From: Ancylobacter sp. IITR112
Lineage (GTDB): Bacteria > Pseudomonadota > Alphaproteobacteria > Rhizobiales > Xanthobacteraceae
Assembly: GCF_041415945.1 (NCBI RefSeq)
Contig: NZ_JBGCUS010000001.1
Coordinates: 3,876,501-3,940,500, forward strand
Reading direction: 5' to 3'
Length of the DNA: 64,000 nucleotides
Shown here: positions 1-4,016 of the stretch, piece by piece
How positions within the stretch are numbered: position 1 is the stretch's first letter
Layout of the letters: each line of letters begins with the position of its first letter
Translations under genes and position numbers: made by a program
Notes under the pieces: generated by a model
What the model was told of the DNA's origin: nothing
Databases searched by the model: none
The model's input: the letters and a program-made list of their open reading frames with translations, nothing else

Positions 1-65
1 GGGACGAAGGCCGGCCCGGCCGGGCGCCCCGCATGCGAGCCCCCATTTCAACGCGCTGCCGCCCG

Positions 66-162
66 CGTCATCCCGGAAGGACCGCAGGTCCTGTCCGGGA
101 TCGTGTCGGTAGCTTGGTGGACGATCCCGGCTCGAAGCCTTCGGCTGCGGCCGGGATGACGG
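66..162. repeat. REP-like palindromic repeat (CATCCCGG family)
   Basis: The stretch opens with CGTCATCCCGG and closes with CCGGGATGACGG, which are inverted, and it has inner GGACC/GGTCC and CGGCTGCGGCCG palindromes. The same outer arms recur near 4760-4862 and 27391-27501, and in the tandem array at 11.5-12.2 kb. It marks ordinary intergenic repeat sequence upstream of the accessory island. Nothing coding is seen in the first 200 bases. Confidence 0.6.
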
Positions 163-201
163 AGTTTCGGGGAAGACGCGCCTCGGTGCGGCCGTCACAG
201 C

Positions 202-297
202 AAGTTGGCTAAGGCTCAGTATTCAACTGGGGGGCCTTAAAGCGGCAGCTTCCGCTGCCGGAGTTATGAAAAGCCACTTCTAGTGGCCTAGTCTTTT
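202..297 (+). other. Cluster of RNA-like structures upstream of the DUF3800 gene
   Basis: Two crossing complementarities could form an H-type pseudoknot: AGTTG (203-207) with CAACT (224-228), and TAAGGC (210-215) with GCCTTA (234-239). They are followed by two perfect hairpins: CGGCAGC-TTCC-GCTGCCG (243-260), and GCCACT-TCT-AGTGGC (273-287), the latter flanked by AAAAG and CTTTT. The density of short perfect stems in under 100 nt suggests a structured RNA or the end of a mobile element. The strand is assumed from the downstream gene. No family was matched. Confidence 0.4.
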
Positions 298-475
298 GAC
301 ATTCACGTCATCCCCACTGTTCACCGCCTTTTCCTGCCCATTGCGTTCGGCGCTGGACTTGGTGCGCGAATCCCCTCTCGATTGCATAGCGGCTTCGTCA
401 CCGGACACCTTCAGACGCCATCTAGATTTGGGGATTTTTTCACGCACTCCACACTAGAGTTTGTGACGCAAGGTT

Positions 476-503
476 GACGTGTAGGCCGGAGTCGGACACC
501 GTC
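476..503 (+). other. Imperfect hairpin in accessory island
   Basis: GACGTGT (476-482) pairs with ACACCGTC (496-503) with one bulged base, and the inner CCG-GAGT-CGG extends the stem. It lies between the upstream structure cluster and the tRNA-like relic. Function unknown. Confidence 0.35.
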
Positions 504-537
504 TCTCGCATGGTTTGCTGAGTAGCACCCAAACAGA

Positions 538-566
538 GCCGCCCCGAACCTTGGGGAACGGGCGGC
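538..566 (+). other. 7-bp hairpin in accessory island
   Basis: GCCGCCC (538-544) is perfectly complementary to GGGCGGC (560-566), with a 15-nt loop that has its own CCCC/GGGG alternative. It sits immediately 5' of the tRNA-Ser-like sequence. Function unknown. Confidence 0.35.
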
Positions 567-570
567 CCAT

Positions 571-658
571 CGAGATGTGGCAGAGCGGTTTATTGCACGA
601 GATTTTGATTCCAGCGGGGAGGTGTTTTCAGATCGCCCGCCGTGGGGTCGAAACCAAG
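571..658 (+). pseudogene. Degenerate tRNA-Ser-like sequence
   Basis: The segment GTGGCAGAGCGGTTTATTGC has the layout of a class II (serine-type) tRNA D-arm: T8 at 578, GCA (580-582) paired with TGC (594-596), and GG in the D-loop. A TTTTGAT sequence follows at the anticodon-loop position. A variable arm GCGGG (614-618)/CCCGC (636-640) and a T-loop-like GTCGAAA come next. The acceptor stem, two of the five T-stem pairs and two anticodon-stem pairs do not form, so it cannot be a normal tRNA. It reads as a decayed tRNA-Ser copy, of the kind left at integration sites, or as a tRNA-like fold. The alignment to serine tRNAs was made from memory. Confidence 0.4.
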
Positions 659-773
659 GTCAAGATTGCATCAAGGACCACAGCGCCAATGTGTAACCCT
701 CGGCGGGATGTGAATGGGCTTCTCTGGTCGACATCGATATATTCTATTAACGAAGCGACTTGAGTTTCACGTT

Positions 774-779
774 TATAAT
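774..779 (+). promoter_or_regulatory. Candidate -10 box for the DUF3800 gene
   Basis: A perfect TATAAT lies 27 bases before the ATG at 807. No convincing -35 element is found at the usual spacing; TTGAGT ends only 8 bases upstream. The call is therefore tentative. Confidence 0.3.
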
Positions 780-806
780 TAAACGACGAAGATTCAGTTG
801 ATCCAG

Positions 807-1523
807 ATGAACGAATTTAGCGACGTTTACATAGACGAGTCGAGCCAAACCAAGCATCGATATTTGGCGCTCGGCGCTCTAATTATTCCAACGAATCAAG
901 CCTCGCTATTCGAGCAAGCCATGGCAGAGGTTCGGCACCCTGAATTGCCGTCGGGCGAATGCGCATGGGTTAAAGTGTCAAGATCAAAATTGCCAGCCTA
1001 TAAGAAAATCGTTGATTTATTCTTCAATAATCCCGTTAATATTAGATATATCGATTTTCATACAATAGTAGTTGATACATCTAAGATAAATGACGCGAAG
1101 TTCAATATGGGCTCGCGTGAAGCCGGCTTTAACAAGGAAATATATCAGCTCGCAATGAAGATGGGGCGTCTGTATAAGACTAACATGTTTCATTTATACC
1201 CTGACAGTCGAAAAACAAATTCATCGACCGAAGAACTAAGGCTTATATTGAACAGGGGATTAGCGAAGAGTGGTGACAAGAGGGATTGGCCATTCCGTCG
1301 CGTTCATTTTCGGGATTCGGCGCAATGCCAAGCAATTCAACTGGTCGACGTCATGCTAGGTGGTCTTGCGTTTCAACTGAACGGCCATCGCCTCAAGCCA
1401 GAAGCGTCGCCAGCGAAGTGTGAGCTTTCAGATTATATTCTGGATCGTGCTGGCATCAAAAATGCGCAAATAGACACTGCGATGCGGGGAAAGTTCACAA
1501 TATGGCATCGCCAGCTACGATAA
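807..1523 (+). CDS. DUF3800 domain protein
   Basis: This is a 238-residue protein of the DUF3800 family. The family signature is visible: an N-terminal VYIDESS motif followed by a hydrophobic strand (YLALGALII), acidic residues in the middle (VVDTS, YPDSRK), and a C-terminal QLVDVMLGGLAFQ helix with a conserved Asp. Three Asp residues spaced like this are compatible with an RNase H-like fold and metal-dependent catalysis, but that is inference. The ATG is preferred; an in-frame TTG nine bases upstream is possible. Base composition is unlike the window: bases 1021-1080 contain 15 G+C of 60, against a GC-rich background, and codons ending in A or T are common, so recent acquisition is likely. 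DUF3800 genes are often linked to defence or mobile loci and to structured RNAs. The flanking hairpins here fit that pattern. Confidence 0.75.
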   Translation: MNEFSDVYIDESSQTKHRYLALGALIIPTNQASLFEQAMAEVRHPELPSGECAWVKVSRSKLPAYKKIVDLFFNNPVNIRYIDFHTIVVDTSKINDAKFNMGSREAGFNKEIYQLAMKMGRLYKTNMFHLYPDSRKTNSSTEELRLILNRGLAKSGDKRDWPFRRVHFRDSAQCQAIQLVDVMLGGLAFQLNGHRLKPEASPAKCELSDYILDRAGIKNAQIDTAMRGKFTIWHRQLR

Positions 1524-1526
1524 TGG

Positions 1527-1600
1527 TCTCGCAACCCTAGACCCAAGGGTCGCCGTCTTGGACGGGTCCACTGCCGAGGCAGTGGCTTCAGGTTGCGAGA
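1527..1600 (+). ncRNA. Candidate structured RNA: three hairpins closed by a 10-bp stem
   Basis: TCTCGCAACC (1527-1536) and GGTTGCGAGA (1591-1600) are perfect inverted repeats. Between them lie three consecutive perfect hairpins: GACCC-AA-GGGTC (1540-1551), CCGTC-TTG-GACGG (1553-1565), and CCACTGCC-GA-GGCAGTGG (1568-1585). The whole would fold as a cloverleaf-like four-way junction of 74 nt. It starts three bases after the DUF3800 stop codon. No U-tract follows, so it is not a standard terminator, and tRNA consensus positions are absent. From memory, several conserved 'DUF3800' RNA motifs have been described next to DUF3800 genes; whether this one belongs to them is untested. Confidence 0.55.
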
Positions 1601-2176
1601 GTGAATCTAACGTAGTGCGCCGCAAGAACTGCGTCAACGGAAGACTCCGCGTTTTCATTTTGTCAAGTCCGAATACGCCAAATTCGTGAGTCGTCTTAAC
1701 AGGTTGGCCTTTTGTAATCATTTAGCTCCAACCCCCCCCCGCTTGCCCTTCCCCTCCCCTTGCGCTATTGCACGCGCGTGTCCGGGCCACCATCTTTTCG
1801 AGGCGGTCCATCGGGAGGGCCGGAGGCGCGGGATGCGCGCTCTCCGTCGCTTGGAGGCCTGTCCTCCGATTCCCGCCTCGCGGCTTGCCCCGGACCCACA
1901 CAGCTTTTCCCGGCGGCGTGCCTGGCGTCTCGGCTCCTTGAGAAAAGGGCCGCGCGTGGCGCCGACGCCGAACATGCGTTTACCTGGAGTGCGATCCGAT
2001 CCGATTGAACCCATCGAATCGGTAAATCGCCCTCCAAGCTCCAAGCCTTTTCTCCCGCGGCCAGCGCGCCGGGTTTGCCCTCACGGGCGGACAGCGCCGG
2101 GCCTGCCAGACCCGGCGTCCGTGGGAAAAGAGGCTCATTCAACCCCGTCCGGCGCAGATCCTGGCAAGGAGCATCT
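1601..2176. other. Gene-free stretch between the accessory island and rpsA
   Basis: No protein gene is supported here. A small hairpin, CGAAT/ATTCG (1670-1686), and a run of nine C residues (1732-1740) mark the change from mixed composition back to GC-rich sequence. The right part is presumably the rpsA promoter and long leader, but no clear -35/-10 pair was found. In many alphaproteobacteria rpsA follows cmk; no cmk is seen upstream in this window. Confidence 0.5.
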
Positions 2177-3883
2177 ATGTCCGCTACTCAAACGCTTGCC
2201 GCCGCGCGTGACGATTTCGCCGCCATGCTCGAAGAGAGCTTCGGCCAGTCCGAGCTCGCCGAAGGTTCCGTCGTCAAGGGCATCGTCGTCGCGATCGAGA
2301 AGGATCTCGCGATCATCGATATCGGCCTGAAGACCGAAGGCCGCGTGGCACTGAAGGAATTTGCCGGCCCCGGCCGCGACCAGGACATCAAGGTCGGCGA
2401 CGAGGTCGAGGTCTATCTCGAGCGCGTCGAGAACGCGCTGGGCGAAGCCGTCCTCTCCCGCGACAAGGCCCGCCGCGAAGAAAGCTGGGTCCGCCTCGAA
2501 AAGGCGTTCAACGCGCAGGAGAAGGTGACGGGCGTCATCTTCAACCAGGTCAAGGGCGGCTTCACCGTCGACCTCGACGGCGCCGTGGCCTTCCTGCCGC
2601 GCTCCCAGGTGGACATCCGCCCGATCCGCGATGTCGGCCCGCTGATGCACAACCCGCAGCCGTTCCAGATCCTCAAGATGGACCGTCGCCGCGGCAACAT
2701 CGTGGTGTCGCGCCGCACGGTTCTCGAAGAGACCCGCGCCGAGCAGCGCCACGAGCTGGTGCAGAACCTCGAAGAAGGTCAGGTCATCGACGGCGTGGTC
2801 AAGAACATCACCGATTACGGTGCGTTCGTCGATCTTGGCGGCATTGACGGCCTGCTGCACGTCACCGACATCGCCTGGCGCCGCGTGAACCACCCGACCG
2901 AGGTGCTCACCATCGGCCAGACGGTCAAGGTGAAGATCATCAAGATCAACCACGAGACCCACCGCATCTCGCTCGGCATGAAGCAGCTCCTCGGCGATCC
3001 GTGGGAGGGCATCGAGGCCAAGTACCCGGTGGAGGCCCGCTTCAAGGGTCGCGTCACCAACATCACCGACTACGGCGCGTTCGTGGAACTGGAGCCGGGC
3101 ATCGAAGGCCTGATCCACGTCTCCGAAATGAGCTGGACCAAGAAGAACGTCCACCCCGGCAAGATCGTCGCCACCTCGCAGGAAGTGGAAGTGGCGATCC
3201 TCGAGGTCGATCCGGTCAAGCGCCGCATCTCGCTCGGTCTCAAGCAGACCCTGCAGAACCCCTGGGACGCCTTCGCCGAGAAGTATCCGGCCGGTGCGGT
3301 GGTCGAGGGCGAGGTCAAGAACAAGACCGAGTTCGGCCTGTTCCTCGGCCTCGACGGCGATGTGGACGGCATGGTCCACCTCTCCGATCTCGACTGGAAC
3401 CGTCCGGGCGAGCAGGTGATCGAGGAGTTCAAGAAGGGCGACATGATCAAGGCGGTCGTTCTCGACGTGGATGTCGAGAAGGAGCGCATCTCGCTCGGCG
3501 TGAAGCAGCTCGGCGGTGACCCCTTCCAGGACGCCGGCGAACTGCGCAAGGGCGCCATCGTCACCTGCGAGGTGATCGACGTGAAGGATGGCGGCGTCGA
3601 TGTGAAGATCATCGGCTCCGACATGACCACCTTCGTCAAGCGCTCGGAACTGGCCCGCGACCGCGGCGACCAGCGCCCGGACCGCTTCGCCGTCGGCGAG
3701 AAGTTCGACGCCCGCGTCACCCTGTTCGACCGCAAGGCGCGCAAGGTGCAGGTCTCGATCAAGGCGCTGGAAATCGCCGAGGAGAAGGAAGCCGTGGCCC
3801 AGTTCGGCTCGCAGGATTCCGGTGCCTCGCTCGGCGACATCCTCGGCGCCGCGCTGAAGAAGCAGGCCGAGAAGGCGGATTGA
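2177..3883 (+). CDS. rpsA: 30S ribosomal protein S1
   Basis: S1 binds mRNA on the small ribosomal subunit and helps initiation on structured or weak-Shine-Dalgarno messages. The 568-residue product has the expected six S1 (OB-fold) repeats, recognisable as recurring blocks such as [20 protein letters not shown] and [20 protein letters not shown], each ending in R(I)SLG(M/L/V)KQ. The start MSATQTLAA is chosen because AAGGA lies six bases upstream; a longer open frame to 2075 has no such support. Length matches the alphaproteobacterial protein. The 3' end is unusual: the last codons and stop are followed by two tandem near-copies of the same 27-bp sequence. A strong terminator follows, and the gene appears monocistronic. 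Confidence 0.97.
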
Positions 3884-3945
3884 TCCGCCTCTCTGGAGAA
3901 GGCGGATTGATCCGCCTCTCTGGAGAAGGCCGAGTGATCGGCCTG
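3864..3945 (+). repeat. 27-bp tandem repeat spanning the rpsA stop codon
   Basis: The unit, beginning GAGAAGGCGGATTGATCC, contains the last rpsA codons (EKAD) and its TGA. It occurs about two and a half times; the third copy diverges to GAGAAGGCCGAGTGATCG. The unit length is a multiple of three, so each copy keeps a TGA in the rpsA frame. This looks like slippage duplication of the gene end. Confidence 0.75.
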
Positions 3946-3983
3946 ATCCGGTTGGCCTGACGGCTGATCGACAAAGCTAAAAG

Positions 3984-4016
3984 ACGGCCGGCGTGGCGAC
4001 ACGCCGGCCGTTTTGT
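3984..4016 (+). terminator. Rho-independent terminator of rpsA
   Basis: ACGGCCGGCGTG and CACGCCGGCCGT form a perfect 12-bp stem around a GCGA loop. The stem is followed by TTTGTTT and preceded by AAAAG, so it can also serve the converging acetyltransferase gene. Confidence 0.93.

Follow-up and report, generated by a model that had tools for sequence, protein, structure and literature searches.

What is the cloverleaf-like structure that lies just past the stop codon of a DUF3800 gene in Ancylobacter sp. IITR112: the tail of that gene's transcript, or an RNA with a gene and a task of its own? It is part of a 64,000-nucleotide stretch of contig NZ_JBGCUS010000001.1, hereafter the window. RNAs beside DUF3800 genes have so far been an open question, their motifs being known and their function not; DUF3800-I and DUF3800-IX are listed in PMC11701678, and non-coding RNAs with DUF3800 are noted in PMC10910872. 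The reading developed here, to which we give about an even chance, is a mobile two-part module consisting of a DUF3800 (RlfA) nuclease and a structured RNA of ~75-90 nt with its own sigma70-type promoter, in which the RNA would restrain the nuclease. What comparative sequence analysis shows is the structure of the RNA, the strand that encodes it, the pattern of its promoter, a linkage to one side of the DUF3800 tree, and a position that at other DUF3800 genes belongs to a protein partner. For one DUF3800 RNA, predictions are thereby offered of the strand transcribed, the start and the promoter, and for its nuclease of the fold; a candidate protein is also named that stands in the RNA's place in sister systems.

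The cloverleaf and its relatives

The gene, the RNA and the parts of the RNA are placed as follows.
807..1523, plus strand: DUF3800 gene (238 amino acids, ATG at 807, stop TAA at 1521-1523), encoding a predicted RNase HII-like nuclease
1526..1602, minus strand: predicted cloverleaf RNA, 5′ end at 1602 (match to the RNA model R2 of 81.5 bits, fold, and pair counts over 11 loci)
1590-1600/1527-1537, minus strand: closing stem P1 of the cloverleaf RNA
1579-1585/1568-1574, minus strand: stem P2, which is palindromic
1561-1565/1553-1557, minus strand: stem P3
1548-1551/1540-1543, minus strand: stem P4
P1 to P2 and P4 to P1, minus strand: conserved linkers, GAAG-type and UAG-type, respectively

The window is itself one training row of R2, so the 81.5-bit match is not independent. 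A preliminary description of this DNA had reported a 10-bp closing stem around three hairpins at 1527-1600, starting three bases after the stop codon, with far more structure than a terminator needs and with no U-tract behind it, and the sequence of the gene strand and the fold of 1520-1610 agree with it on every count; read on the opposite strand, the closing stem has 11 pairs, the eleventh being G-U. The fold of 1520-1610 reaches −42.1 kcal/mol, against a mean of −28.5 (sd 3.75, z −3.62) for 200 dinucleotide shuffles, only one of which is as stable. The two strands of the window fold nearly equally well, at −40.0 kcal/mol on the opposite strand versus −41.4 on the gene strand, and neither ARAGORN nor the Rfam tRNA model finds a tRNA in the window.

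Related DUF3800 loci come from genome contigs (L001-L003), virus contigs (L011-L014), genomes of the window's order (L016, L017) and the order of the Sphingobium locus L003 (L204, L205); L012, whose DNA ends at the DUF3800 stop codon, is excluded from the RNA counts. The cloverleaf is found at the 3′ end of DUF3800 in 11 loci, namely the window and ten others, whose DUF3800 proteins are 59% (L011), 52-56% (seven loci), 35% (L205) and 33% (L014) identical to that of the window. The preliminary description had proposed looking for inverted repeats beside close homologues and for compensatory change in their stems, and both are present, the latter strongly, at 21 of 27 pairs. In an alignment of eight loci made by sequence alone (A4), double changes affect 17 of the 27 pairs and 34 cells, shuffled means being 8.3 and 10.0 and none of 500 shuffles reaching either value; the measure of further pair types, one of five, is unremarkable (94 of 500 shuffles). 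The RNA model built from these eight loci (R1) recovers the RNA at the held-out loci L014 (46.3 bits), L205 (46.7) and L204 (33.0). In a model-fitted alignment of the opposite strand at all 11 loci (A8), which is biased towards the structure on that strand, pairing is seen in 92.9% of 295 stem cells and double changes extend to 21 of 27 pairs and 62 cells, a result equalled by 0 of 500 shuffles, and sliding the partner columns by 1-3 lowers pairing to 35-47%. A covarying structure thus consistently adjoins DUF3800 genes, as is characteristic of DUF3800-associated structured RNAs. Its length varies mainly in hairpin P4, both ends are conserved, and no obvious variable guide segment is seen in the 11 aligned RNAs.

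A two-hairpin RNA-like structure (z −6.6) was also noticed downstream of a DUF3800 gene (32% identical) in the Moorella phage MCACPph1 (L221, ~2724-2800, minus strand), with the same GAAG linker as the cloverleaf RNA and a T-run past the closing stem.

The RNA is linked to one group of DUF3800 genes. R1 matches three of 397 genomes of the window's order (G000, G406 and G643), exactly those with a close DUF3800 (E ≤ 5.5e-108), in a search whose strict filters lose some weak matches, and the RNA is absent at the distant DUF3800 genes of G635 and G678 in the same order. There is a single copy in the window's genome and in each of the genomes of L001-L003, and every match to R1 or R2 at E ≤ 0.001 adjoins DUF3800. 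In the order of the Sphingobium locus, where 6 of 246 genomes have DUF3800 at E ≤ 1e-15, the L003 genome, L204 and L205 carry the RNA; L206-L208, searched at the DUF3800 loci only, do not. A sample of the phylum has DUF3800 in 9 of 249 genomes, and none of the six new loci (L209-L214) bears the RNA. The close DUF3800 group is itself sporadic: at E ≤ 1e-30, the G406 family has it in one genome out of 69 and the G643 family in one out of 12.

Whether the RNA is a new member of the known DUF3800 motifs or a distinct partner, both of which the preliminary description allowed, was addressed with Rfam 15. No Rfam family matches at gathering threshold in the 64 kb of the window; at E ≤ 10 there are seven weak unrelated matches in 600-2200, none to a DUF3800 family. 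Twenty loci, including L011, L014, L204 and L205, yield five tRNAs only, and the DUF3800 models give nothing at E ≤ 2 in the loci of 9 of the 11 RNAs, although these DUF3800 negatives stand without a positive control, as the RF02969 model matched none of 14 control genomes. Membership of the Rfam 15 DUF3800 families is therefore not borne out, and what stands is a conserved structured RNA tied to DUF3800 and, because no Rfam 15 model matched, distinct as far as these models tell. It shares with DUF3800-I (RF02969), DUF3800-IX (RF02968) and their sisters the adjoining of a conserved structured RNA to a DUF3800 gene, and differs from them in that no Rfam DUF3800 model matches the cloverleaf loci scanned. 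In the open-licence literature, nothing was found on its own promoter, its strand, its IS1595 neighbours or its exclusion of the protein partner.

Strand and promoter

The preliminary description implied a reading on the DUF3800 strand, and here the evidence points the other way: the asymmetry of the base pairs, the energies of folding and the conservation of a promoter favour the opposite strand, on which the RNA is convergent with DUF3800 in 10 of 11 loci. On the gene strand, most mismatches are C-A, and a C-A there reads as G-U on the other strand. When the opposite strand of the 11 loci is aligned by sequence alone (A6), its stems have 17 G-U versus 5 A-C, and A8, with its leaning towards that strand, has 17 versus 3 (one-sided binomial P 0.0013). 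Eight of the 11 loci fold more stably on the opposite strand (in L002, −37.8 versus −24.7 kcal/mol); the gene strand has the lower energy in the window, L011 and L013. The RNA overlaps the coding 3′ end of DUF3800 by 14-22 bases in L003, L014, L017 and L205.

In the window, a predicted promoter (shuffle p 0.004) precedes the RNA.
1609..1614, minus strand: −10 element TACGTT, 6 nt before the RNA start
1632..1637, minus strand: −35 element TTGACG of the same promoter, spacer 17

Eight of the 11 loci have a sigma70-type promoter, with a TTGAC-like −35, a spacer of 16-17 and a −10, placed 6-7 nt upstream of the RNA start (shuffle p 0.000-0.021 each), some −10 elements being imperfect (TCAACT in L002, TACGTT in the window); at L014 (p 0.55), L204 (0.07) and L205 (0.86), none stands out from shuffles. 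Summed over loci, the promoter score on the opposite strand is 73.1, against 0.6 ± 9.7 for shuffles and with 0 of 1000 equal to it, whereas the gene strand has no excess (−6.8 versus −17.0 ± 10.3; 172 of 1000 shuffles). In L011, the RNA lies on the DUF3800 strand, the entire unit, promoter included, being turned round relative to the gene, which gives the RNA the appearance of an independent gene. Past P1, the opposite strand is rich in T at some loci, nine of the first 10 bases being T in L016 and six in L011 and L205. From these comparisons, the cloverleaf is very probably an independent RNA gene on the strand opposite DUF3800; it does not look like the tail of the DUF3800 transcript.

Predicted nuclease, protein partner and mobile setting

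Structure comparison predicts an RNase HII-like fold for the window's DUF3800 protein, Argonaute chains being among the weaker matches, and the predicted structure qualifies as RNase H-like. Residues D10, E11, D133 and D181, which may correspond to the RNase HII catalytic site, are unchanged in 25 of 25 sequences. A protein search, without DNA context, finds 602 relatives at E ≤ 0.001, of which 120 are listed. The protein matches PADLOC PDC-M04A (E 1.5e-31), as does RlfA of phage P1 (E 1e-95). RlfA/NamA had earlier been assigned an RNase H fold, NamA-domain proteins being described as likely RNA-cleaving toxins in PMC3710099, and both the RlfA and RlfB genes were scored nonessential for P1 in PMC10695390.

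In P1, RlfA is followed by RlfB, and both RlfB and a neighbour protein in Phyllobacterium match PDC-M04B, a candidate defence protein. Sequences of this protein B from P1, Phyllobacterium and 12 virus loci (L225-L236) were combined into a profile, which was then applied to 44 DUF3800 loci (in the window, to bases 1-4000). At E ≤ 1 it finds protein B in none of the 12 RNA-bearing loci, that is, the eleven and the Moorella phage variant, with L013 offering 281 bases after the stop, so that B could be partly out of sight there. Among the 32 DUF3800 loci without the RNA, B lies downstream in 28 (E ≤ 1e-6) and is missing at this level from L007, L010 (E 0.04), L018 and L223; 14 of the 28 helped to build the profile, and among the 18 not so used, B is present in 14. 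Because the Moorella protein served as the query that retrieved the 12 virus loci, sampling is uneven. Searches with R2 detect no RNA at either L225-L236 or L220-L224. The RNA thus occupies the position where protein B otherwise sits. A 45-row protein tree, made of 13 RNA-side rows (the L012 copy assigned by kinship) and 32 others, is divided by a 97/82 branch into the 13 together with L018 and the remaining 31 rows.

These distributions suggest, tentatively and as a possibility rather than an expectation, that in one DUF3800/RlfA branch the cloverleaf RNA replaced RlfB (PDC-M04B), or the reverse, so that the two clades would have the same nuclease but differ in what runs it, a protein or an RNA, the RNA form being a compact ribonucleoprotein defence or addiction module spreading on IS1595-family transposons and prophages. 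In a separate observation, a DUF3800 gene with its B partner in Phyllobacterium zundukense (L224, 2492-3648) lies within a type I restriction-modification operon, flanked by the genes of the S and R subunits.

The preliminary description also suspected mobile or defence elements, and a mobile context was found in some loci. In L001, L002 and L195 (the L011 contig), DUF3800 is faced across the RNA by a transposase of the IS1595 family (Pfam PF12762, E 2.9e-28 or better); no such transposase was found in the DNA searched at the other 8 of 11 RNA loci, the window included. Terminal repeats of 35 nt (89%) in L002 and 23 nt (83%) in L001 enclose the RNA, DUF3800 and the transposase, the RNA lying internally between the two genes, and none was found at L195 with the core used. 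An IS1595 transposase is likewise found next to L018, whose DUF3800 relative is truncated and lacks the RNA, and in L012 and L013 the DUF3800 gene is at the end of a virus contig. A conserved protein of 50-95 amino acids, on the minus strand and divergent from DUF3800, was noted in L001 (2010-2198), L002 (2825-3040), L003 (1351-1503), L195 (3772-3975) and L018 (1282-1566); the three examined have no Pfam match above cut-off.

Possible roles, related systems and surrounding DNA

That the RNA works together with the DUF3800 protein is, on this evidence, probable. In the proposed sequence of events, the RNA would be transcribed from its own promoter, fold into the cloverleaf and be recognised by the DUF3800 protein, which fits the pattern of conserved unpaired linkers and freely covarying stems; its binding would keep the nuclease inactive until some trigger, so that the pair would serve as a module of addiction or abortive infection, on the model of AbiF and its neutralisation by RCd22. 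An antitoxin-like inhibitor is the most likely single role by analogy, at slightly less than an even chance, and an active cofactor its main rival, because AbiF-RCd22 is the nearest tested precedent and antisense action is disfavoured. One finding calls for caution: protein B has a weak RelE/colicin-like resemblance, and if it is a toxin, a swap of partners would not show that the RNA is an inhibitor.

As an active cofactor, the RNA would be needed by a ribonucleoprotein nuclease for activity or choice of target, like crRNA or omega RNA with other RNase H-fold nucleases. The predicted fold with its Argonaute matches, the linkage of RNA and gene and the transposase beside three loci would suit this role; the aligned RNAs, variable mainly in P4 and conserved at both ends, show no obvious guide, and in L001 and L002 the RNA lies within the terminal repeats of the IS1595-type elements rather than at their edge, so that flanking DNA cannot provide a guide there. 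We consider it unlikely. Convergence in 10 of 11 loci and the overlaps with the coding 3′ end recall a type I-like antisense regulator pairing with the 3′ end of the DUF3800 mRNA, which is improbable given that L011 keeps its promoter with the RNA on the DUF3800 strand, that antisense pairing does not require conserved hairpins, and that pairing with the translation start is not in excess (mean −51.6 kcal/mol for own versus −52.6 for swapped partners, own pairing ranking first in L014 only and second in L205).

It is still less probable that the repeats act as double-stranded or cruciform DNA, recognised for instance by a transposase or nuclease: the flipped orientation in L011, the palindromic P2 and the adjoining transposases would fit, but G-U pairs kept mainly on one strand are an RNA signature, the promoter is on one side only, and most loci lack the transposase in the DNA searched. 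A convergent terminator or 3′-end stabiliser of the DUF3800 mRNA, with no separate role for the RNA, would account for the position at the end of the gene and for the T-rich stretches past P1, yet is hardly credible in view of the excess of structure, the lack of a T-run on the gene strand of the window, and a promoter and covariation typical of an RNA gene.

Among known systems, AbiF-RCd22 of Clostridioides difficile comprises a prophage protein bound and neutralised by an RNA of ~100 nt with its own vegetative promoter, according to PMC12373285. The likeness, judged by sequence on the side of the cloverleaf, lies in a nuclease gene on a mobile element with an adjacent small structured RNA having its own promoter; RCd22, however, is upstream of abiF, co-transcribed with it and carries abiF motifs (RF03085), whereas the cloverleaf RNA is convergent at the gene's 3′ end. 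The abiF motif RF03085 has no match in the window or in the scanned cloverleaf loci. The proteins differ too, AbiF being a HEPN protein and DUF3800 having an RNase H fold. Type III toxin-antitoxin systems (ToxIN-like) have an RNA gene made of tandem repeats of an RNA unit. At the level of sequence, the small RNA gene next to a nuclease gene that marks RNA antitoxin systems of the AbiF-RCd22 kind is present here; the tandem repeats of ToxIN-like systems were not found, each locus having one unit. RlfA/RlfB and PDC-M04A/B share the DUF3800 protein as their A component and differ in having B in the slot that the RNA takes. TnpB and IscB are RNase H-like nucleases carried by insertion sequences, with an omega RNA from their 3′ end that reaches across the transposon end and takes its guide from flanking DNA. 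The resemblance lies in nuclease fold, 3′ RNA and insertion-sequence carriage; the cloverleaf system differs in its protein family, in an own promoter on the opposite strand, in showing no guide segment and, in L001 and L002, in an RNA internal to the transposon. If the RNA does control the nuclease, the group of nucleases under RNA control, which includes AbiF and ToxN, would gain a member with an RNase H fold, and nature would offer one enzyme controlled by a protein or by an RNA for comparison.

The surrounding DNA holds some minor features. From −206 to 1739, the window is a spot of variable content, four same-genus genomes being common on both sides and different between; G789 has 868 bases of other sequence there. 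By eye, the DNA ahead of the DUF3800 region (window 572-655 and L215 1896-1994) resembles a decayed class-II tRNA gene, the T arm being cut at ~655, which is also where similarity to G789, a genome of the same genus, stops; in G789, ARAGORN finds a tRNA-Leu (caa) at the corresponding position, whereas it finds none in the window, and Rfam has no match in window 500-720. The gene at ~2177, downstream of the variable spot, is presumably ribosomal protein S1-like. Three dispersed repeats (window 66-162, 306-498 and 1984-2045) have many copies among the matches listed in 30 same-genus genomes.
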